A stretch of 52,634 bases of DNA from Sulfurimonas sp. (GTDB lineage: Bacteria > Campylobacterota > Campylobacteria > Campylobacterales > Sulfurimonadaceae). The DNA is taken from positions 1 to 52,634 of the forward strand of contig PPDH01000036.1 in assembly GCA_002899765.1 (NCBI GenBank), in the 5' to 3' direction. Under the pieces are notes generated by a model that did no database searches, was not told the origin of the DNA, and saw only the letters and a program-made list of their open reading frames with translations. Each line of letters opens with the position of its first letter. The stretch's first letter is position 1. Positions 175-10,700 of the stretch are shown piece by piece. The translations under genes and the position numbers were made by a program.

Positions 175-1212
175 ATGAGAGGTTCATATTTTAATACCAT
201 TGAAACTAAGTTAACTGCATATTATAAAGATAATAAAATTAAAGAGTTAAATGATTCTTATATTATCATCAAAATATTATCTCTTGATGAAAACAGAATT
301 AATAAACAACTGTATCTTTATTTAAAAAATAAACTTGAAAATATTTATATATCTCATGATTCATTTGAATCTTTACTTCAGTTATTTAACGATTCTAAAT
401 CGACTTTAGATTTGAACAAACTAAGAGCTTACGATACACTTAAAATATTTGATGCAATTCATTTTAATGAGTTATTAGCTAAAGATGAAGATTTAATAAT
501 TAATGCAATAACTAAAAATGAAAATATTATTATAAAAAACTATAGAGACATTATTAAATATTTACCATCTTGGTTAGACATAGAATTTTTTGATGACAAT
601 AAATCTTTTAATAATTTAAGTACAGGAGAGAAAACTTTTTTTAGATTACAAATATCTCTTCTATATCAAATAAGTAATTTAAAAGATACTTTATATAATA
701 CAATTAATATTTTTTTAGATGAAATAGAGTTAACTTTACATCCATTATGGCAAAAAAAAATATTACAAGAATTAATTTTCTCCATTTCTAAAATCAACAC
801 AAAGAAAATAAATTTATTCTTTATTACTCATTCCCCATTCATACTATCAGATGTACCAAAAGAAAATGTAATTTTTTTAGAAAAAGGAAAACAAGTTTAT
901 CCAAACATCGAAACCTTTGGAGCAAATATTCACACTCTGCTTTCTCACGGCTTTTTTATGAAAGATGGGCTTATGGGGGAGTTTGCGAAAGGTAAGATAG
1001 AAGATGTTATAAATTATCTCAACGATAAAGAATCAACTATCAAAGATAATGACGAAGCTCAAAAACTTTTAAATATTATCGGTGAACCGATTATTAAAAA
1101 TCAACTTCAAAGAATGCTTGATAGTAAAAGATTGTCAAAAGTTGATGAGATTGATAAAATAAAATCAGATATGAAAAGTTTAGCAAAAAGACTAGAAGAG
1201 TTAGAAAAATGA
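175..1212 (+). CDS. AAA/ABC-type ATPase, N-terminally truncated (Septu PtuA-like)
   Basis: This is the C-terminal part of an SMC/ABC-like ATPase of the type found in defence systems. The ABC signature LSTGE lies at residues 148-152, Walker B INIFLDEIE at 177-185, and the H-loop ITHSPF at 217-222. No Walker A motif is present, although in this family it sits near the N terminus. The frame is open upstream only to 76, and ATG 175 is the only standard start in it. The 5' part of the gene therefore appears lost, or it lies in another frame outside the window. The gene overlaps the next one by 4 bases, as toxin and effector pairs often do. The DNA is strikingly AT-rich compared with the hyp genes, which points to transfer. 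Without Walker A the protein should not hydrolyse ATP, so it may be a remnant. Confidence 0.7.
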   Translation: MRGSYFNTIETKLTAYYKDNKIKELNDSYIIIKILSLDENRINKQLYLYLKNKLENIYISHDSFESLLQLFNDSKSTLDLNKLRAYDTLKIFDAIHFNELLAKDEDLIINAITKNENIIIKNYRDIIKYLPSWLDIEFFDDNKSFNNLSTGEKTFFRLQISLLYQISNLKDTLYNTINIFLDEIELTLHPLWQKKILQELIFSISKINTKKINLFFITHSPFILSDVPKENVIFLEKGKQVYPNIETFGANIHTLLSHGFFMKDGLMGEFAKGKIEDVINYLNDKESTIKDNDEAQKLLNIIGEPIIKNQLQRMLDSKRLSKVDEIDKIKSDMKSLAKRLEELEK

Positions 1213-2144
1213 TTAAAATCAATACAACTCAAACCATTGTTGATAGTTTTTATAATTCAGTAGTAAAACTATTTGAAAATAAGTTGGTGAAAACTAAAAC
1301 TAAAAAGATTATTTGGTCAATAGAATTTAAAACAATAGATAAATTATTGAATACAAAACTCAAAAACTTTGATGAAAAAATAACTTTTGAAAAAATCATA
1401 AAAGCTGATTATACATATATGAAAGAGCTAGTAGAATTTTTAGATAAACATCCTCAAAGATACGTATTAAGCCCACAAGAAAAAGATTATTTTTTAACTA
1501 TGTACAATAGATTAAAAAAAGCAGATTTTATAAAACAGTTAAATATATATGTTTGCCCATACTGTAATAGAAATTATATTTTTAATTTTAGTAAAAATAA
1601 CACGCAAGAAGCAACCGCACAACTTGACCACTTTTTTGATAAAAAAGATTATCCATATCTTGCAATTACTCTATATAATTTAGTGCCTAGTTGTTCTACA
1701 TGTAATCAAAGAAAATCATCAAAAAGAGAAAATATTTTTTATCCTTATTTAGAGAGTTTTAACGAGAGTGCAAAGTTTAGATATAAAGGAATAAAGTCTA
1801 TTGCTAAAGATGAAAAAATAGATTTTTTAGATTCTAAAAGAGTAATGTTTAATATTGAAGCTATAAAAGATAATGAAAAAGTAGAAAAACATATAGAGGT
1901 ATTTAATCTAAAAAATTTATATGAAGAACATAAAGATATAGTTGCCGAGTTGCTTCAAAAAAAAGAGATATACAACGACAGCTACATAGATGAACTTATG
2001 CAAAAATACGAAGGAACGCTATTTAAAAACCGTGAAGATTTGCTTAGACTTGTGACATGTGGATATGTGAATGATGAAGATTTACACAAACGCCCATTAA
2101 GCAAACTCATCAAAGACATAAGTGAAGAGTTAAACCTGATATGA
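1209..2144 (+). CDS. HNH endonuclease, Septu PtuB-like partner of the upstream ATPase
   Basis: The protein has an HNH/zinc core: CPYC at residues 116-119, LDH at 139-141 with the general-base His141, N157, and a second CxxC at 162-165 followed by Asn166. This spacing is that of a beta-beta-metal nuclease stabilised by a structural zinc. HNH proteins of this kind are encoded next to SMC-like ATPases in Septu (PtuA/PtuB) and retron-associated systems and cut nucleic acid when infection is sensed. The 4-base overlap with the ATPase gene supports translational coupling. The C-terminal segment HKRPLSKLIKDI is rich in basic residues. All nuclease residues look intact, whereas the partner ATPase is truncated. 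Assignment to Septu rather than another ATPase/HNH pair is inference from gene order and motif. Confidence 0.72.
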   Translation: MIKINTTQTIVDSFYNSVVKLFENKLVKTKTKKIIWSIEFKTIDKLLNTKLKNFDEKITFEKIIKADYTYMKELVEFLDKHPQRYVLSPQEKDYFLTMYNRLKKADFIKQLNIYVCPYCNRNYIFNFSKNNTQEATAQLDHFFDKKDYPYLAITLYNLVPSCSTCNQRKSSKRENIFYPYLESFNESAKFRYKGIKSIAKDEKIDFLDSKRVMFNIEAIKDNEKVEKHIEVFNLKNLYEEHKDIVAELLQKKEIYNDSYIDELMQKYEGTLFKNREDLLRLVTCGYVNDEDLHKRPLSKLIKDISEELNLI

Positions 2145-2175
2145 GTGAAATTAAGAAAGATACGGGAAAACAGCA

Positions 2176-3261
2176 ATGAATGACATGCAAACACAAAATG
2201 ATTACAACTCTTTTTTAGCAGAGATAAAGCAACAGATAAAATCATCGCAGATAAGGGCTATAAATAGTGTAAATAAAGAGATGATACTGCTTTATTTTCG
2301 CATTGGAAAGAACATAAACCAAAAACAAAAAGAGCTTGGGTGGGGTGCGAAGGTTATTGACAATCTTAGTCATGATATCAAGAGTGCATTTCCAGAGCTT
2401 GGCGGGTTTTCTGTTAGAAATATTAAGCTTATGGTTCAGTTTTATAGAGAATATGAAACCATTGAAATTGGGCAACTGCCAGTTGCGCAAAATGAATCTG
2501 TACAAAATAGGCAACTGTTGGTTGCACAAATTCCTTGGGCTCACAATATAGTTTTGATACAAAAAATCAAAGATATAGATTTGCGATATTGGTATATGCA
2601 AAAAACTCTTGAACATGGTTGGAGTAGGGATGTATTGGCTTTAATGGTACAAAGCCAACTGCACAAGAGAGAAGGAAAACTAATATCAAACTTTAAAAAT
2701 ATTTTAGCCCCACAAGAGAGTGATTTGGTGCAACAATCATTTAAAGACCCTTATTTATTTGATTTTTTAACTATTGCCGAGCCTTTTTTAGAAAGAGAAC
2801 TTGAGTCAAATTTAATCAAACATATGGAAAAGTTTCTCATAGAACTTGGAAGCGGTTTTGCCTTTGTCGGCAGGCAGTATAAGCTTGAAGTCGGTGATGA
2901 TGACTTTTATATTGATTTACTTTTTTATCATTTGAAACTTCGATGTTATGTAGTCGTTGAACTTAAAAAAGGTAAATTCAAGCCTGAATATTCGGGGCAG
3001 GTTAATTTTTACTGTTCTGCCGTAGATGAAATTTTGGCTCATAAGGAAGATAAACCGACGATTGGGCTTATTCTTTGTCAAGAAAAAAATGAGATAGTTG
3101 CCGAATATTCACTGAGAAATATGTCGCAACCTATTGGCATATCGGAGTATGAATTGACAGAGGTTTTACCAAAAGAGTTTGAATCAAGTCTGCCGACTAT
3201 TGAAATGATAGAAAATGAGTTAAAACAGAGTTTAAATACAACGGAGAAAACAGATGACTAA
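2176..3261 (+). CDS. YhcG-family PD-(D/E)XK nuclease (DUF1016)
   Basis: The N-terminal half is the DUF1016 domain: residues 10-95 with GWGAKVIDNLSHD and SVRNIKLM, then PWAHN at 120-124 and the WYMQKTLEHGWSRD stretch. The C-terminal half is a restriction-like nuclease fold with D247 in FYIDLLFY and E262-x-K264 in VVELKKG, the expected metal-binding triad. Genes of this family are common beside type I restriction and other defence loci, and their exact role is unsettled. The gene starts 31 bases after the HNH gene and overlaps hypE by 8 bases, so it could share a transcript with the hydrogenase genes. Its base composition is closer to the chromosome average than that of the two genes before it, so it may have a separate history. 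Confidence 0.82.
   Translation: MNDMQTQNDYNSFLAEIKQQIKSSQIRAINSVNKEMILLYFRIGKNINQKQKELGWGAKVIDNLSHDIKSAFPELGGFSVRNIKLMVQFYREYETIEIGQLPVAQNESVQNRQLLVAQIPWAHNIVLIQKIKDIDLRYWYMQKTLEHGWSRDVLALMVQSQLHKREGKLISNFKNILAPQESDLVQQSFKDPYLFDFLTIAEPFLERELESNLIKHMEKFLIELGSGFAFVGRQYKLEVGDDDFYIDLLFYHLKLRCYVVVELKKGKFKPEYSGQVNFYCSAVDEILAHKEDKPTIGLILCQEKNEIVAEYSLRNMSQPIGISEYELTEVLPKEFESSLPTIEMIENELKQSLNTTEKTDD
2471..2529 (+). repeat. Two imperfect 20-bp repeats inside the YhcG-family gene
   Basis: A 20-base unit at 2471-2490 recurs at 2510-2529 with 16 of 20 identical bases and a period of 39 bases, which is 13 codons. It encodes GQLPVAQ and then RQLLVAQ just before the conserved PWAHN segment. Because the period is a multiple of three, unit number could change without breaking the frame. 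Confidence 0.6.
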
Positions 3262-4252
3262 AACAATAACATTAGCACAGGGTAACGGCGGGCAGGAGAA
3301 CAACGAACTTATCTCTAAGGTTTTTTACAAAGCATTTAAAAACGACATCCTAGACAAAAACGAAGATGCGGCTATTATCCATAACGGAGAGTTGGCATTT
3401 TCAACAGACAGCTTTACGGTTTCGCCTCTTTTTTTTGCGGGAGCGGATATCGGTAAGCTTGCTATCTGCGGTACATGTAACGATTTGGCGATGATGGGTG
3501 CTGCTCCGAAGTATTTGACATGTAGCGTCATCATCGAAGAGGGTTTTGAGACGAGAGATCTGGAACGGATTGTTCGAAGTATGAAAAAAGAGCTTGAGAT
3601 TAACGGTGCGATTGTCGTAAGCGGCGATACAAAAGTCGTGCCTCGCGGAAGTGTCGATAAGATTTTTATAAATACGACCGGAATCGGCGAAGTTTTAAAA
3701 AAGGGTATCAGTTCTAACAACATAACAAAGGATGACATCATCATCGTAAACCGAGATATCGGTTGTCATGGGGCGGCTATTTTTGTTGCGCGTGAAGGCA
3801 TAGAGATGAGCAGTTCACTCAAAAGCGACTGTGAATCGCTTTTTCCTCAGGTAAAGGCTCTTTTGGATGCAAACATAAAGATAACCGCTATGAGAGATGC
3901 GACAAGAGGCGGAGTGAGTGCAGTGCTCAACGAGTGGTCAAGACAATCAGATGTATGCATAGAGATTCAAGAGGAGAGTATCCCCATCAGTGATGAGGTA
4001 AAAGGTATCTGTGAGATGCTCGGTTTTGAAGCGACTGCTTTGGCGAACGAGGGTACTTTTGTGTTGGCGGTAAATCATGATGATGCCCAAAAAGCGGTAG
4101 AGATTTTAAAAACTTTTGAGAGTTGTAAAAATGCTGCGATAATCGCTAAAGTAACAGACACTCATCTAAAAAAGGTTATTTTAAAGAGCAGTTGGGGAAC
4201 TTCAAGATTTTTAGATACGCCAAGCTGCGAGTTGCTTCCTAGAATCTGTTAA
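3254..4252 (+). CDS. hypE: Hydrogenase maturation protein HypE (cyanide-ligand synthesis)
   Basis: HypE takes the carbamoyl group delivered by HypF onto its C-terminal cysteine and dehydrates it to thiocyanate with ATP. It then passes cyanide to iron on the HypCD complex during [NiFe] active-site assembly in the cytoplasm. The protein has the usual length (332 aa) and the N-terminal GNGGQENN motif. It has AIR-synthase-like ATP-binding segments (VSGDTKVVPRG, MRDATRGGV), and the last residues PRIC end on the carbamoyl-carrying cysteine. A GGAG ribosome site precedes ATG 3254, which lies inside the end of the YhcG-type gene. hypX follows after 4 bases. hypB, hypC, hypD and hypF are not in the window and must lie elsewhere if the pathway is complete. 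Confidence 0.95.
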   Translation: MTKTITLAQGNGGQENNELISKVFYKAFKNDILDKNEDAAIIHNGELAFSTDSFTVSPLFFAGADIGKLAICGTCNDLAMMGAAPKYLTCSVIIEEGFETRDLERIVRSMKKELEINGAIVVSGDTKVVPRGSVDKIFINTTGIGEVLKKGISSNNITKDDIIIVNRDIGCHGAAIFVAREGIEMSSSLKSDCESLFPQVKALLDANIKITAMRDATRGGVSAVLNEWSRQSDVCIEIQEESIPISDEVKGICEMLGFEATALANEGTFVLAVNHDDAQKAVEILKTFESCKNAAIIAKVTDTHLKKVILKSSWGTSRFLDTPSCELLPRIC

Positions 4253-4256
4253 AGCT

Positions 4257-5915
4257 ATGAAAATACTTCTTATCGTTTCGGCATTTAACTCTCTTACGCA
4301 AAGACTCTTTTGTGAGCTTCAAGATATGCAACATGTAGTCTCGGTGCAGTATGCCATAAGTAATGAGGCGATGATACAGAGCGTTGATGCGTTTGCGCCC
4401 GATATCATCTTTTGCCCTTATCTGAAAAAGTATCTCCCAAGTGAGATATTTTTAAATACTCCTACATTTATACTTCATCCGGGAATCAGAGGAGACAGAG
4501 GGCATAATTCGTTAGACCATGCTATAAGAGAAGATAAAAAAGAGTGGGGAGTCGTGATACTCAGAGCAAACGAAGAGTTTGACGGCGGAGATATATACGC
4601 CGAAGTAAGATTTGAGATGAGAGATGCGACAAAGGCTTCCATATATAGAAACGAAGTTGCAGATGCTGCCTCAAAAGCTCTTAAGATTTTCCTAGAAAAT
4701 ATACATGACAAAGATTTCAAACCTGCTCCTCAACTCAAAACTCCCATACATCCATATCTTACGCAAAAAGAGAGAGCAATTGATTGGCAAAAAGATACGA
4801 CAAAAGAGATTATAAAAAAGATACATGTAAGCGATAGTTTTCCGGGTGTAAAAGATGATTTTTTTGGAATAGAGTGTTATCTCTTTGGAGCGTGGGAAGA
4901 AGAAAAGTTCAGAGGAAAACCCAAAGAGATAATCGCCAAAAGAGACGGCGCAGTTTGCGTCGGTACGATTGACGGTGCTATTTGGATAAGTCACATGTCA
5001 GAAGTCGGCAGGTTTAAACTTCCCTCAACTTATGTTTTAAAAGATAAAATCAAAGGCGTTAAAGAAGAGCGGCTTCCTCTTATTTTTGATATGAGCTATA
5101 AAACATTTTACGAAATCAGCTCCCATAAAGACGGCGATGTGGCGTATTTGTGCTTTAACTTCCATAACGGCGCAATAGGCTCTGAGCAGTGCATCAGGCT
5201 AAAGTATGCGTTTGAGTATTTAAAAGAGAGTGCAAAAGTCATTGTGCTTATCGGCGCGCAGGATTTTTTTAGTAACGGCATACATCTGAACATACTCGAA
5301 GATTCCAAAAAGCAGGGAGAAGACGGCTGGAGCAACATAAATGCCATGAATGATTTGATAAAGTCAATCATATTTGCAGATGACGTAATCACGGTTGCAT
5401 CTCTGCATAAAAATGCAGGAGCAGGCGGAGTGTTTCTGGCTTTGGCATGTGATTATGTCCTTACATGTAAAGATGTTGTTTTAAACCCGCACTACAAAAC
5501 TTTGGGGCTGAGCGGAAGCGAGTATCACACATTTTCACTGCCAAAAAGAGTGGGTGCGCACAAGTCAAAAGAGCTGCTGGAACGTTGTCTGCCGATAAAT
5601 GCCGCTATAGCGAAAGAGATAAATATGGTGGATGAGGTTTTTGAAAAAGAGAACTATTTTGAGCAGTTAAGAAGTTTTACCGATAAACTGGCAAATACGC
5701 GAGACGAGTATGATGATTTTATATATGAAAAAGAGGATTATCTGCAAAGAAACAGAGAATTTATAAATGAGTGCAAAGAGAATGAGTTAAAGACAATGCA
5801 CCCGGAATTTTGGAATGAGGAGAGTTCGTTTCATAAGCTGAGACATGATTTTGTTTATAAAGTCTGCTCTATTGAAACACCTCAAAGATTAAAATCAAGG
5901 AATATAGATGCATGA
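4257..5915 (+). CDS. hypX: Hydrogenase maturation factor HypX/HoxX (CO-ligand synthesis)
   Basis: This is a fusion of an N-terminal formyl-tetrahydrofolate transferase-like domain and a C-terminal enoyl-CoA hydratase (crotonase) domain. That layout identifies HypX, which makes the active-site CO from formyl-THF through formyl-CoA and matters mainly when oxygen is present. The formyltransferase part shows HPG at residues 74-76, SLD at 85-87 and FDGGDIY at 108-114. The crotonase part from about residue 290 shows FFSNGIHLN and [17 protein letters not shown], the segments that build the oxyanion hole. Length is 552 aa, normal for the family. It starts 4 bases after hypE and overlaps hypA by 8 bases, so the three are one unit. 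Its presence suggests the hydrogenase is matured under micro-oxic conditions. Confidence 0.93.
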
Positions 5916-6249
5916 ATACAGCATAGTGCAGTCGCTTTTAGACTCATGTGAAGAGAATGCCGCAAAAAACAACGCTACAAAAGTAACTAAAGTCGTAGTT
6001 AAAATCGGTGTTATGAGCGGGGTAGAGCCTGAGCTTTTAAGAACCGCATTTGATACATTTAAAGAAAAGACGCTCTGTGAAGAGGCGGAATTTGTTATAA
6101 ATATCCAGCAAATCGTTATAAAATGCAACAAATGTTTAAATGAGTCAGTTTTAAAAAGTATAGATTATTGTTGTCCTAAATGTAAAGATACGGATATTGA
6201 GATTCTTGAGGGAGAAGATATGTATTTGATGCAGTTAGAACTTGAGTAA
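5908..6249 (+). CDS. hypA: Hydrogenase nickel-insertion protein HypA
   Basis: HypA delivers nickel, together with HypB, to the hydrogenase large-subunit precursor. The protein has the canonical start MHEYSIV, whose His2 is a nickel ligand, and a zinc site made of two CxxC pairs (KCNKC and CPKC, about residues 72-94). Length is 113 aa, as expected. The start overlaps the end of hypX. A 137-base gap follows before the hydrogenase subunit genes, so a second promoter there is possible. HypA family members also serve urease, but the context here is clearly hydrogenase. Confidence 0.95.
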
Positions 6250-6386: not shown

Positions 6387-7940
6387 ATGAGTGAGAGAAA
6401 AATTACTATAGACCCGTTAACAAGGATAGAGGGGCATCTTAAATTTGAGACGAAAATCCAAGACGGGGTTGTTACAGAGGCTAAATGTTCTGCAGAGATG
6501 TACAGAGGAATTGAGAAGGCACTTATAGGTTACGATGCCAGAGTTGCGCAACAGGTTACGCAGAGAGTTTGCGGAGTTTGTCCTTATGCACACGCTGAAG
6601 CAGCTTCTCTTGCACTTGAAAACGCTATGGGGATAAAACCAAATCATAACGGACAATTGCTAAGAAATATGATTGTCGGAGCTTATCAGCTTCAAGACCA
6701 CCTTCTTCACTTTTATATTTTAAGCGCGTTGGATTTTATCGATATAACTGCGGTGCTAAAATATGAGGGAGATGATGAGAGCGTACTGAGTGTAAAAAAA
6801 TGGGTTCAAAACGAGCTCAAAAGTAATAAAATATTTCCTGCAGCTCCTTTTTTGCCACGCTATGAAGCGATGTATGCAAAAGAAAACAACACCAATTTTA
6901 CAGCAATCAAAAACTATTTAGAAGCTATTAAAGTCATGGCCGATTTGACAAAAGCGGTTGCAATATTCGGGGCAAAAGCACCGCACTCCGTAACGCTTGA
7001 AGCAGGCGGTGTGACAACGATTCCTACTGTAGGAAAACTTGCAAAGTATAGATCTTTAATAATAAGTGCGAGAAGTTTTATAAAAAATAATTACATAAAC
7101 GATATCGTAGCCGTAGCAAAAGAGTTTCCTGAGTATTTTAAAATCGGCGCAGGATACGGAGATTACCTCTCTTACCCATATCTGCCTGATGAAAACGGAG
7201 AAAATCATCTTTTTGTAGGCGGCTCGACAATTGACGGCAAATATGAAGAACTTGATTTGAAAAATATCTTTGAAGACCATAAATTCTCCTACTACAAAAA
7301 TAAACCCGACTCCAACGTAAGACCTCTTGACTCAAAGATATTAACACCTATAAATTATGAAGAGTTTAAAGAGGAGCAGAAAAAAGAAGACGGAAAATAC
7401 AGCTGGTCAAGAGCGCCTCGTTACAAAGGCAAAATTATGGAAGTAGGTCCGGTCGCAAGAGTTATAAACACGTATAAAAGCGGTAAAAATAAAAAGCTTA
7501 ATGCTCTTGTGGATTCTATAAATAAAAAACTTGGGCTTACTTTTAAAGAATATAACTCTGTTTTAGGGAGACATCTTTGTAGGGCAATTGTGTCAACTAT
7601 AATAATTGATAAAATCTTAGAAGATACAGAAAAAGTGGTTCCGGATGAACTCGCATTTGTAGAGAGAGATGTTCCAAAAAATGCAGTCGGATTTGGACTT
7701 ACAGAAGCAACAAGGGGTTCCTTGGCACACTGGATAGAGACTGATGAGAATGGTTTTATAAAAAACTATGACATGATTGTACCCACAACTTGGAATATCT
7801 CGCCAAAAGATGCAAGCGGAGTTCCAGGAGCCGTAGAGAAGATGCTTATAGGAACTAAAATCAAAGACCCAGACAATCCGATAGAGTTGGCAAGAATAGT
7901 GAGATCTACAGATCCATGTCTTGCATGTTCGGTTCACTAA
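6387..7940 (+). CDS. [NiFe] hydrogenase large subunit without a C-terminal extension (sensor-type candidate)
   Basis: This subunit carries the Ni-Fe(CN)2CO site. The N-terminal ligand motif RVCGVC is at residues 60-65 with H69 nearby, and the C-terminal motif DPCLACSVH is at 509-517. The stop codon follows His517 directly. Catalytic uptake hydrogenases continue beyond this His with a peptide that a specific endopeptidase removes after nickel insertion. Regulatory H2-sensing hydrogenases (HoxC/HupV) lack it. Only 9 bases separate the stop from the next gene, so no extension can be hidden in another frame. The segment DHLLHFYILSALDFIDI resembles respiratory group 1 enzymes, so the class is mixed on sight. 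Ribosome site AAAGGG precedes ATG 6387. Subunit order large-then-small is the reverse of most respiratory operons. Confidence 0.93.
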   Translation: MSERKITIDPLTRIEGHLKFETKIQDGVVTEAKCSAEMYRGIEKALIGYDARVAQQVTQRVCGVCPYAHAEAASLALENAMGIKPNHNGQLLRNMIVGAYQLQDHLLHFYILSALDFIDITAVLKYEGDDESVLSVKKWVQNELKSNKIFPAAPFLPRYEAMYAKENNTNFTAIKNYLEAIKVMADLTKAVAIFGAKAPHSVTLEAGGVTTIPTVGKLAKYRSLIISARSFIKNNYINDIVAVAKEFPEYFKIGAGYGDYLSYPYLPDENGENHLFVGGSTIDGKYEELDLKNIFEDHKFSYYKNKPDSNVRPLDSKILTPINYEEFKEEQKKEDGKYSWSRAPRYKGKIMEVGPVARVINTYKSGKNKKLNALVDSINKKLGLTFKEYNSVLGRHLCRAIVSTIIIDKILEDTEKVVPDELAFVERDVPKNAVGFGLTEATRGSLAHWIETDENGFIKNYDMIVPTTWNISPKDASGVPGAVEKMLIGTKIKDPDNPIELARIVRSTDPCLACSVH

Positions 7941-7949
7941 GGAGATAAA

Positions 7950-8897
7950 ATGGCTACTTTAACAAGAAGAGATGCAATAAAGCAGATGCTAAAAGTGATA
8001 GCTGCGGTTGGAGCGGCAAACTTTTTTACGCTTGAAGACCTTATGGCTATGGAAAACGGAAAAATGATAAAACCAAATATAGTTTGGCTTCATGGTTCCT
8101 CGTGTTCTGGCTGTTCAACCTCCTTTTTAAATATCGAAGATGTTTCTGTTCTTGATATTCTCACAAGATACACAAATATTGTTTATCATCCAGATATCTC
8201 TTTAGCAACTGGAAAACAAGTAACAGAGATACTTAACAAAGCTTCTAAGGAGCTAAAAGATAACTATCTTTTAGTAGTAGAGGGTTCTATTCCAGTGGCA
8301 ATGCCTCATGCTTGTATGATGGGTGATAAACCTATCATGGAGTGGATGGAGCAGATGAGTGCTAGCGCTTCTGCTTGTGTTGCGGGCGGAACATGTGCTG
8401 CATTTGGAGGAATTACGGGAATGCAAGGGATGGATGCAGGTGTTATGTCTATCGGCAATTTTACAAAACATAAAAAAATAAACAAGCCGGTTGTATCTCT
8501 TCCAAATTGTCCTATGAAGCCTGAACACTTAGTTTATGTCATTTTTCATTATGCAAAATTCAGAACTATTCCAGAGCTTGATGCAGAGGGAAGACCTCTT
8601 AGATTTTTCTCTCAAACCGTTCATGAGAGGTGTATTTATTACTCTGAGTTTCAAGAGAAAAATTATGCAAAAAAAATCGGTCAAGCTGGCTGTCTGCTCA
8701 GACTCGGCTGTCAAGGGCCGGTTACAAAAAATGATTGCATGACGATTGGACATAATAACAACACAAATACATGTATAAAAGCAGGTCATCCATGTATAGG
8801 GTGTGCAAGCGAGCATTTTCCAAGACAGATTATGCTTCACACTTTCAAGGACGAAAGAGCCATTGAAAAGTTTAAACATTTTAAGTTTAGGGGATAA
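7950..8897 (+). CDS. [NiFe] hydrogenase small subunit with Tat-like leader, three Fe-S clusters
   Basis: This is the electron-transfer subunit. Proximal cluster ligands are C52, C55, C149 and C187. Distal ligands are H225, C228, C248 and C254, and medial ligands are C263, C282 and C285 in GHPCIGC. The extra cysteines that make some membrane-bound enzymes oxygen-tolerant are absent: the proximal motif is CSGC, and residue 154 is Gly. The N terminus TRRDAIKQ at residues 5-12, followed by a short hydrophobic run, resembles a twin-arginine signal, so the heterodimer may be exported. There is no C-terminal membrane helix, and no cytochrome b subunit gene follows. The next gene, a chemoreceptor, starts 3 bases after the stop. 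The Tat assignment is inference, and a vestigial leader is possible. Confidence 0.92.
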   Translation: MATLTRRDAIKQMLKVIAAVGAANFFTLEDLMAMENGKMIKPNIVWLHGSSCSGCSTSFLNIEDVSVLDILTRYTNIVYHPDISLATGKQVTEILNKASKELKDNYLLVVEGSIPVAMPHACMMGDKPIMEWMEQMSASASACVAGGTCAAFGGITGMQGMDAGVMSIGNFTKHKKINKPVVSLPNCPMKPEHLVYVIFHYAKFRTIPELDAEGRPLRFFSQTVHERCIYYSEFQEKNYAKKIGQAGCLLRLGCQGPVTKNDCMTIGHNNNTNTCIKAGHPCIGCASEHFPRQIMLHTFKDERAIEKFKHFKFRG

Positions 8898-8900
8898 ATC

Positions 8901-10700
8901 ATGCAAAAGAGAAGCTTTTTTGAAACTATCTTGTTTAAACTCTCTTTCCCTCTTGTTTTTAGTGTTGTAGCCATTTCTGTTATCTCTATAACACTCAACT
9001 ATTATCTTCAAAAACAAAAACTTGAAGAGATGATAGAAGATAAGGGAAGTGCTATTTTGCATAATTATGTTGTCTCTTCAAAAGATTCTCTTGCTCGGGG
9101 TCAGCGCAAAACATTTCAAGCTGCAATGGACAATATAGCACTTCTAGAGGGTGTAAAGGAGACTGTTTTATATGCATCTTCGGGACTTATGAACTACAAA
9201 TCAAAAGAGGTGACGGTCGGAAAACCGTTTGTTCACAAAGGAGATAGTTTTTACAATCCAAATAAAGAGATTTATGAACAAACAAATGGAATGTATCTGC
9301 GAACAGACTGGAGTGATAAACCGCTTGAAGAATCAGCCGGGTTTCACGGAAGCACTTTGATGGATAAAGAGAAAAAATGTAGTAGTTGTCATTTTGAAGT
9401 TGATAGAGATTTAGAGTTTGCGGACAACAGAGCATATAAGATAGATGAATCAGAAGATACATCTACTTTTTATGAAAAAATTATCGCTGAAAAAGGGTGT
9501 ATCGCCTGCCATACAAACTGGAAAGAAGGTGATGTTTCAGGTTATCTCGGAGTGAGTATCTCAAACAAAAAAATGAGAGATCAAGTTAAAGACAACATGT
9601 GGAACTTTACGCTTACACTTGTTACGATTGCATTTATAATAATCGTTATTGCTCTTATCGTCTCTTTAAAGTTTAAAAGCAAACTGCAGCTTTTGCTCGA
9701 TGGCATTAGAAATCTCAATGAAAAAAAGGGTTCGCGAATAGAGATTAAAGAGAATGATGAGATTAAAGATATCGCCGAAGAGTTTAATCGTTATATAAAG
9801 AACATGGAAGATGGAGCAATCCAAGATAATGAGCTTATTGCCAATCTATCCGATGTTGCTTTTGAGACTGCCAAAGGTGATATGACAAAAAGAGTTGAAG
9901 TAGATGCAAGCAGCGAATCTCTCAATAAACTAAAAGAGATTGTCAACTCTATGCTTGACGCCATGAATACAAATATCCAAAAAGTGCTTGAAGTGCTTAA
10001 GAGTTATGAAAATGATAACTTTAAAGCGATTATAGAAGTATCCGATACTACAGGAAGAGTCAAAGAACTTTTTGAGAGTACAAACAGTTTGGGGAAAGCG
10101 CTCTCAAAAGCGAGCAGACAAGAACTTGAGGACGGGCACAGTCTTGAAGAACAATCTCTTAAGCTATCTGAAAATATGACTTTACTAACGGTCTCAGCAC
10201 AAGATCAGGCGCAAAAACTCAAAGAGACTTCAAAAATCATGGAGTCCATTACAGTCGCAATAAATGAGATTGTACATAGAACTAACAACGTTGTAAGTCA
10301 ATCTGAGGATATAAAATCTGCAATAAGTATTATTCGTGACATTGCAGACCAAACCAATCTTTTGGCACTTAATGCAGCTATCGAAGCAGCTCGAGCAGGA
10401 GAGCATGGTAGAGGGTTTGCAGTCGTTGCAGATGAAGTAACTAATCTTGCTGAAAAAACACAAAAAAGTCTTAATGAAATTACCGCAACAGTTGGTATCA
10501 TGACAGGTTCTATTAACGAAGTAAGTTCTACGATGCAGGAACAGTCTCAAGCAGTTTCTAATATTAATGATACTATTGGCGCACTTGAGGAGACGACACA
10601 AAAAAATGCGGATAACGCAAAAGAGGTAAGTGAGATTGTGACGCAAACCAAAGAAATGGCAGGACGATTTGTTCACAATGCCAAATCTAAAGAGTTTTAA
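8901..10700 (+). CDS. Methyl-accepting chemotaxis protein with a periplasmic diheme c-type sensor domain
   Basis: This is a transmembrane chemoreceptor. The first membrane helix is about residues 14-34, the periplasmic domain 35-231, the second helix about 235-257 and the HAMP region 258-305. The signalling hairpin follows, with its conserved tip around 479-513 ([19 protein letters not shown]). The periplasmic domain holds two covalent heme c motifs, CSSCH at 160-164 and CIACH at 200-204. Heme-bearing receptors such as DcrA-type proteins sense redox state or oxygen. The gene begins 3 bases after the hydrogenase small subunit and has no gap for its own promoter. It is therefore probably translated from the same mRNA. 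I infer that it receives electrons from the hydrogenase, so that H2 changes heme redox state and the CheA output. Confidence 0.93.

Follow-up and report, generated by a model that had tools for sequence, protein, structure and literature searches.

A gene for the large subunit (LSU) of a [NiFe] hydrogenase that lacks a C-terminal tail, a gene for a small subunit (SSU) with a predicted leader for twin-arginine translocation (Tat), and a gene for a methyl-accepting chemotaxis protein (MCP) follow one another at positions 6387-10700 of a 52,634-nucleotide stretch of Sulfurimonas sp. DNA (contig PPDH01000036.1; "the window" below is this whole stretch). The LSU ends with RSTDPCLACSVH, and its TAA stop codon (7938-7940) directly follows the last conserved His. 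The gap between the LSU and SSU genes (7941-7949) is 9 bases long, and that between the SSU and MCP genes is 3 bases long. The features of this unit are the following.

6387..7940, + strand: tail-less [NiFe] hydrogenase LSU, 517 residues (PF00374, 464.8 bits)
7911..7940, + strand: LSU C-terminus DPCLACSVH, then TAA at once (from the sequence and the alignment)
7950..8897, + strand: hydrogenase SSU, 315 residues (TIGR00391, 196.5 bits against a cut-off of 179.5)
7950..8048, + strand: predicted Tat leader, SSU residues 1-33 (invariant RR and A33; accepted by a simplified Tat rule)
7965..7970, + strand: twin-arginine codons AGA AGA (by codon inspection)
8901..10700, + strand: MCP with a periplasmic diheme Cache-like domain, 599 residues (PF00015, model and alignment)
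9378..9392, + strand: first CxxCH of the MCP, residues 160-164 (no variation among the 19 aligned MCPs)
9498..9512, + strand: second CxxCH of the MCP, residues 200-204, ahead of the last strand of the Cache fold (likewise constant in all 19)

Relatives were sought in two phyla, Campylobacterota and Pseudomonadota. Comparison of the window LSU with 397 Campylobacterota genomes yields eight other members of 54-93% identity; the remaining listed matches fall at 36-41%. The SSU, run against species genomes in a scan that detects close relatives only, yields ten loci, including Thiocystis (two), Thiospirillum, Chromatium and Methylococcaceae. (Chromatium okenii is reported to be without hydrogenases in the available part of PMC6374484; what is said here of papers cited by PMC number refers throughout to the part of each text that was available.) In the order of genome G402, 8 of 210 genomes are positive (four at 80% identity or more, G402 included, three at 65-69% and one at 44%), a sample of 398 genomes from its phylum contributes two further members (43-44%), and a class-wide search around G737 (48 genomes) returns G737 and G661 only. 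The nearest named relative of the LSU, in Sulfurimonas sp. Kmv11, is 96% identical. No plasmid-borne member is found among the 30 listed of 139 matching plasmid records, the best listed identity being 35% (the best identity of every matching record is below 60%).

The aligned set takes one sequence of each subunit from a genome and covers both phyla; it comprises 24 SSUs and, with G472 omitted, 23 LSUs, locus L038 not being counted beside L048. The LSU gene of G472 (L097:6758-8312) is split by a frameshift, its SSU and MCP frames being intact; the pieces were kept unjoined and appear in neither the alignment nor the tree of LSUs. LSU and SSU genes of the clade lie on separate contigs in G404 (L044/L101) and G406 (L046/L102).

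Tail, leader and class of the enzyme

That the tail is missing, with only nine bases before the next gene, had been noted in an original prediction made from this DNA. The coordinates agree, and the absence extends to the family: all 23 aligned LSUs stop at the conserved His, with zero residues beyond it in any row, and the 3' piece of the G472 LSU likewise terminates there. The cleavable C-terminal extension, a group 1 trait, is thus found in 0 of 23 aligned LSUs and is present in all 35 group-1-type LSUs used for comparison (L001, L002, L016-L036, L055-L061, L065-L067, L075, L076). The maturation protease (PF01750) was not found in four of 25 genome handles (G200, G398, G397 and G404; G200 and G398 appear to be one genome). 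This absence gives no proof, since a tailed HoxH-like large subunit is also encoded in G398, G397 and G404, where a protease of divergent sequence may have escaped detection.

The SSU starts with MATLTRRDAIKQMLKVIAAVGAANFFTLEDLMA, in which residues 16-28 form an uncharged run (N-terminus in the window: MATLTRRDAIKQ). The RR pair occurs without exception in the 24 aligned SSUs, an Ala (A33) follows exactly 26 residues after it in every one of them, and R6, R7 and A33 are the sole invariant positions among the first 45 residues (window numbering). The codons of the pair are less uniform: AGA-AGA in 12 genomes and eight other pairs across the remaining 12. Position -3 to the A33 site is Leu or Ile in 21 SSUs and Ala in three. 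Of the 24 SSUs, 21 pass a simplified TATFIND-like rule on n-, h- and c-region, the window SSU included, and the rule selects 21 of 336 open reading frames at 25 loci: 18 clade SSUs, two molybdoenzymes (SRRxFLKG) and one MCP start, which is probably a false positive. A search for TatC is positive for 22 of the 25 genome handles, that of this genome among them. The prediction that the SSU keeps a Tat-like leader is supported by the invariant pair, the fixed spacing and the rule, and a search for homologues without the RR pair, the counter-case that had been named, found 24 of 24 with it.

The cysteines of the NiFe site (C62, C65, C511 and C514) are invariant in 23 of 23 LSUs, and the 12 cluster-ligand columns of the SSU in 24 of 24. 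One of these columns is an extra medial Cys, C275; the residue aligned to it is Cys in the NiFeSe hydrogenase of D. vulgaris and Pro in a [NiFe] hydrogenase. The NiFeSe models of NCBIfam score highest for both subunits, below their cut-offs (538.3 against 600 and 223.8 against 470), and the nickel ligand is Cys, not selenocysteine (TGT codon in the window; Cys in 23 of 23). In a quick LSU tree (56 rows, two of them PDB sequences entered by hand; SH-aLRT support only; some branches flagged as long) the 20-row main clade forms one branch (100), and three distant tail-less members form a separate one (96) that joins D. vulgaris NiFeSe at 82. All tail-less rows of the clade fall within the group 1 part of the tree, a 51-row branch (96), outside which stand pHG1 HoxC, two group 2 rows and two HoxH-like rows. 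From this position, the simplest reading is of an exported-type enzyme that would have lost its tail, not of a cytoplasmic sensor gaining a leader. A group 2 origin finds no support in the tree, and the leader is present, unlike in group 2b.

Other hydrogenases occur in the same genome. One is tailed, with an RR leader and a maturation protease nearby; another is a tail-less group 2 pair without a leader. The latter and pHG1 HoxBC, also leaderless, agree with the earlier statement that known tail-less sensors are cytoplasmic. On contig C7 (L114:2395-6500) a tailed [NiFe] LSU is accompanied by a fused SSU: an 800-residue protein without an RR start carries pyridine-nucleotide-disulphide reductase and BFD [2Fe-2S] domains and has the SSU as its C-terminal half; pairs similar to this flavoprotein-fused one are present in related genomes. 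On contig C22 (L115:7253-7255) an in-frame TAG, either real or a sequencing error, breaks the reading frame of this genome's canonical RR SSU gene.

The chemoreceptor and other neighbours

An MCP gene adjoins the SSU gene in 21 of 24 genomes. In 19 it lies downstream on the same strand (18 of these are in the MCP alignment; the other is in G661), in G596 a partial match lies downstream at the contig end, and in G405 the adjacent gene is on the other strand. (The MCP alignment holds 19 sequences; L098, L100 and G404 were left out.) In the 397 Campylobacterota genomes the enzyme occurs in nine and the full-length sensor in eight; both occur in seven and are adjacent in all seven, an overlap with P ~1e-12 if genomes are independent, which these related genomes are not. 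Eight of the 16 matches in the sensor search were short (40-57 residues round the second CxxCH, E ~1e-6) and are not counted as full.

The signalling domain of the window MCP matches PF00015 with 115.2 bits, and neither CxxCH motif varies among the 19 aligned MCPs. A model of the sensor region (mean pLDDT 86.1) has a single Cache-type fold between two long helices and matches the WalK sensor 4ywz_B (Z 11.1, rmsd 3.2, 134 residues aligned); in this predicted model the second motif, C200-H204, sits between strands 187-195 and 212-221. The heme of sCache_heme domains is assigned to that position (PMC12889525), and the first motif is an extra one. The window MCP has no match to DUF3365 at E up to 0.001, and its sensor domain none by sequence in the PDB. 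No heme-Cache entry stands among the fold matches listed, which is no evidence of absence. A kinase encoded beside the Thiospirillum SSU was considered as a heme sensor and rejected: it has no CxxCH, and its similarity to one MCP is a 25-residue match (E 0.003).

In G348 and G061 the partner of the hydrogenase pair is a molybdoenzyme with its own Tat-like leader. The tail-less pair stands with a DmsA/PhsA-like molybdoenzyme bearing an SRR leader at L049:6410-12478 and L050:3751-9803, and a scan of the G061 locus shows a 4Fe-4S protein and a NarJ/TorD-type chaperone near the molybdoenzyme. Pair and molybdoenzyme together perhaps constitute a periplasmic H2-dependent reductase.

Ahead of the LSU gene lie genes for hydrogenase maturation.

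3254..4252, + strand: hypE (TIGR02124, 439.1 bits, above cut-off)
4257..5915, + strand: HypX-like protein with formyl-transferase and enoyl-CoA-hydratase domains (PF00551, PF02911, PF00378)
5908..6249, + strand: hypA (PF01155; TIGR00100 above cut-off)

The product of 4257..5915 we take to be HypX-like from its pair of formyl-transferase and enoyl-CoA-hydratase domains; it is a possible source of the CO ligand. A gene of this kind is expected for CO-ligand synthesis in air, and a six-Cys proximal pattern marks oxygen-tolerant hydrogenases; the enzyme that the gene precedes here is without that pattern in the list of its Cys residues. Directly ahead of hypE, at 175-3261, are three candidate defence genes, for an AAA ATPase (best PADLOC match PDC-M62A), an HNH-type protein (PDC-M62B) and a DUF1016-like nuclease (PDC-S02). 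In L047 the genes ahead of hypE resemble, by eye, hypB, hypC and hypD instead of defence-like genes.

Proposed mechanism and its alternatives

Positions 6387-10700 probably encode a periplasmic H2-sensing chemotaxis unit, in which a Tat-exported tail-less pair would be wired to the hemes of the MCP. Hyp proteins would load the LSU, which, being tail-less, would require no protease, and the folded LSU-SSU pair would be exported by the Tat translocase by way of the RR leader of the SSU, as the conservation of that leader suggests. In the periplasm the enzyme may oxidise H2, with its three iron-sulfur clusters relaying electrons to the two c hemes in the Cache domain of the adjacent MCP, and the redox state of these hemes may then set CheA activity and steer the cell relative to H2. 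The attachment of c hemes takes place outside the cytoplasm, so it is there that the enzyme has to meet them.

The original prediction also held that cleavage of the tail normally gates Tat export, which is overstated: when the tail of Ralstonia eutropha HoxG is deleted, loading and activity persist and so, to a lesser extent, does export (PMC7294309), and E. coli Hyd-2 with its tail deleted is cited as exported even without cofactor (PMC7294309; review PMC12134894). Its further statement, that an exported pair of this kind must have a different quality control, is a fair one where the class is natural. Natural tail-less enzymes are named in groups 2b, 2d, 4c, 4e and 4g and none in group 1 (PMC7294309). 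A candidate checkpoint is already published, namely that the SSU itself refuses an unloaded LSU (PMC7294309). By analogy with that suggestion, made for other tail-less enzymes, an SSU accepting only a cofactor-loaded LSU would replace the tail-cleavage checkpoint here.

Alternatives bear on the tail, on the leader and on the function of the pair. A tail might be made by read-through of the LSU stop codon into the SSU frame, and in the window the two genes do share a frame; in the family, only 9 of 21 linked pairs do so, and each of the three stop codons occurs (TAA 12, TGA 6, TAG 5; n=23). The mixed stops and varying frames thus rule out recoding into a hidden tail for the family, and the chance that one exists is negligible. 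The leader, in turn, might be a relic on an enzyme that is cytoplasmic like other tail-less sensors and has no contact with periplasmic hemes. This accords with the leaderless state of the known tail-less sensory enzymes (HoxBC on pHG1 and this genome's own group 2 pair) and with the failure of generic Tat profiles to notice the window leader. A relic leader, the other branch that the original prediction had allowed, is nevertheless very unlikely, because RR is kept in 24 of 24 SSUs despite codon change and at fixed spacing; moreover the open reading frames accepted by the simplified rule are almost exclusively clade SSUs. A leader that stays uncleaved, as an N-terminal membrane anchor keeping the exported enzyme beside the MCP, would be compatible with export. 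In its favour are the shortness of the uncharged run, 13 residues in the window, and the lack of any other visible anchor. Opposed to it are the invariant A33 at a fixed distance from RR and the Leu, Ile or Ala at -3, as for a signal-peptidase site, and we regard such an anchor as improbable. Tat export of the pair is, on this evidence, likely.

The main rival, to which a limited though appreciable chance must be given, accepts export and takes the pair for an ordinary periplasmic uptake enzyme or for spare catalytic subunits of a membrane hydrogenase, with the MCP a mere neighbour that senses NO or ambient redox state directly. A periplasmic pair without selenium in Nautilia PV-1 has been proposed to replace the catalytic subunits of Hyd-1 (PMC10092268), and a Nautilia NiFeSe-type pair is called soluble and periplasmic, its role unclear (PMC2628731); NO binding is described for sCache_heme domains that are fused to signalling modules (PMC12889525); a molybdoenzyme takes the place of the MCP in G348 and G061; and G125 retains the sensor alone. 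Opposed to this are the linkage of the MCP in 21 of 24 genomes from two phyla and, in the window, the lack of a membrane-subunit gene adjoining the hydrogenase pair and of any C-terminal membrane helix seen in the SSU.

A number of results weigh against the periplasmic H2-sensing unit proposed above. Three of 24 SSUs fail the simplified Tat rule (two have a hydrophobic residue after RR, and one has a 12-residue run). Curated profiles perform weakly on this family: PF10518 matches three of 24 leaders and TIGR01409 seven, and the window leader is recognised by neither. Tat-specific prediction, which had been proposed as a check, is accordingly divided for the window, where the simplified rule accepts what these two models miss. 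(TIGR01409 detects pHG1 HoxK and not HoxB, and misses the canonical RR SSU of this genome, 164-residue open part.) TatC was not found in G406, G448 and G737 among the 25 genome handles searched. Across six close relatives the leader has a pN/pS of 0.27, higher than the 0.13 of the mature part; by this measure the leader is constrained, less so than the enzyme body. On the side of the partner, no MCP stands beside the pair in G348, G061 and G404 of the 24 genomes (in G404, with LSU and SSU on different contigs, neither an MCP nor a molybdoenzyme is a neighbour), and G125 has a diheme-type MCP near a contig end (L113:6269-8041) without a detected pair, there being no SSU in the 361 bases to the contig end and no LSU match at the search threshold. 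Related single-heme Cache domains act as NO sensors (PMC12889525). Finally, the case for localisation, activity and taxis is drawn from sequence: anatomy, conservation and linkage are observed, and Tat export, H2 oxidation, electron transfer to the hemes, CheA signalling, proofreading by the SSU and taxis are what we infer from them.

Relation to known systems

Among the nearest known enzymes are the HysAB hydrogenases ([NiFeSe], of Desulfovibrio, and their [NiFe] relatives in group 1), which share with the window pair the periplasmic type, the RR leader, the fourth medial Cys (C275) and the best-scoring NCBIfam models for both subunits; D. vulgaris HysA also groups with the three distant tail-less members (82). 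The window pair differs in its nickel ligand, which is Cys and not selenocysteine, in falling short of the cut-offs of those models and in having an MCP as partner; moreover HysA extends past the His (the 5jsu chain is 507 residues long and the match ends at 492), and the window LSU does not. HoxBC/HupUV of group 2b resemble the window system in the absent tail and the proposed sensing of H2, but HoxB has no leader, the group 1 part of the tree does not include HoxC, and the output is a kinase instead of an MCP (HydDB, PMC5037454). Tail-deleted HoxG of R. eutropha (MBHproc) is, like the window LSU, a tail-less group 1 large subunit with a Tat-exported partner (PMC7294309); it is engineered and of lower yield, whereas the window class is natural and conserved.

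On the receptor side, the sCache_heme (DUF3365/Tll0287) receptors, GSU0582/GSU0935 and DcrA are likewise MCPs with a periplasmic Cache-type domain and a c heme before the last strand (PMC12889525; PMC8396549); the window MCP is set apart by a second conserved CxxCH, an adjoining hydrogenase and the lack of a DUF3365 match. Sensing of H2 through an MCP has also been proposed for [FeFe] hydrogenases of group C2 (putatively chemotactic; PMC5037454), which are an unrelated enzyme family.

No MCP-linked [NiFe] group is found in the available part of the HydDB description (PMC5037454), and full-text searches of open-licence papers returned no description of an exported tail-less hydrogenase class with a chemoreceptor. 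The periplasmic pairs of Nautilia may belong to this clade; their accounts, in the parts available, mention neither a missing tail nor an MCP partner (PMC10092268, PMC2628731). It counts against novelty that a neighbourhood survey of [NiFe] large subunits tabulates a cluster of 87 MCP genes nearby, uncommented in the part available (PMC12727194).

Loss of the tail is known for cytoplasmic groups 2b and 2d and some of group 4 (PMC7294309); here it is joined to an export signal conserved across two phyla. On balance we lean towards the existence of a natural Tat-exported class that would dispense with tail-and-protease maturation, rely on proofreading by the SSU, and wire H2 to diheme chemoreceptors for H2 taxis in sulfur-oxidising Campylobacterota and purple sulfur bacteria. 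Such natural proteins make testable the purpose of the LSU tail, that is, whether the SSU alone can reject an unloaded LSU before Tat export, and also how bacteria perceive gradients of H2. The sensing hypothesis is testable and unusual: if the proposed electron path is true, the receptor would read its stimulus as the redox state of its hemes, after the stimulus itself has been consumed by the enzyme.

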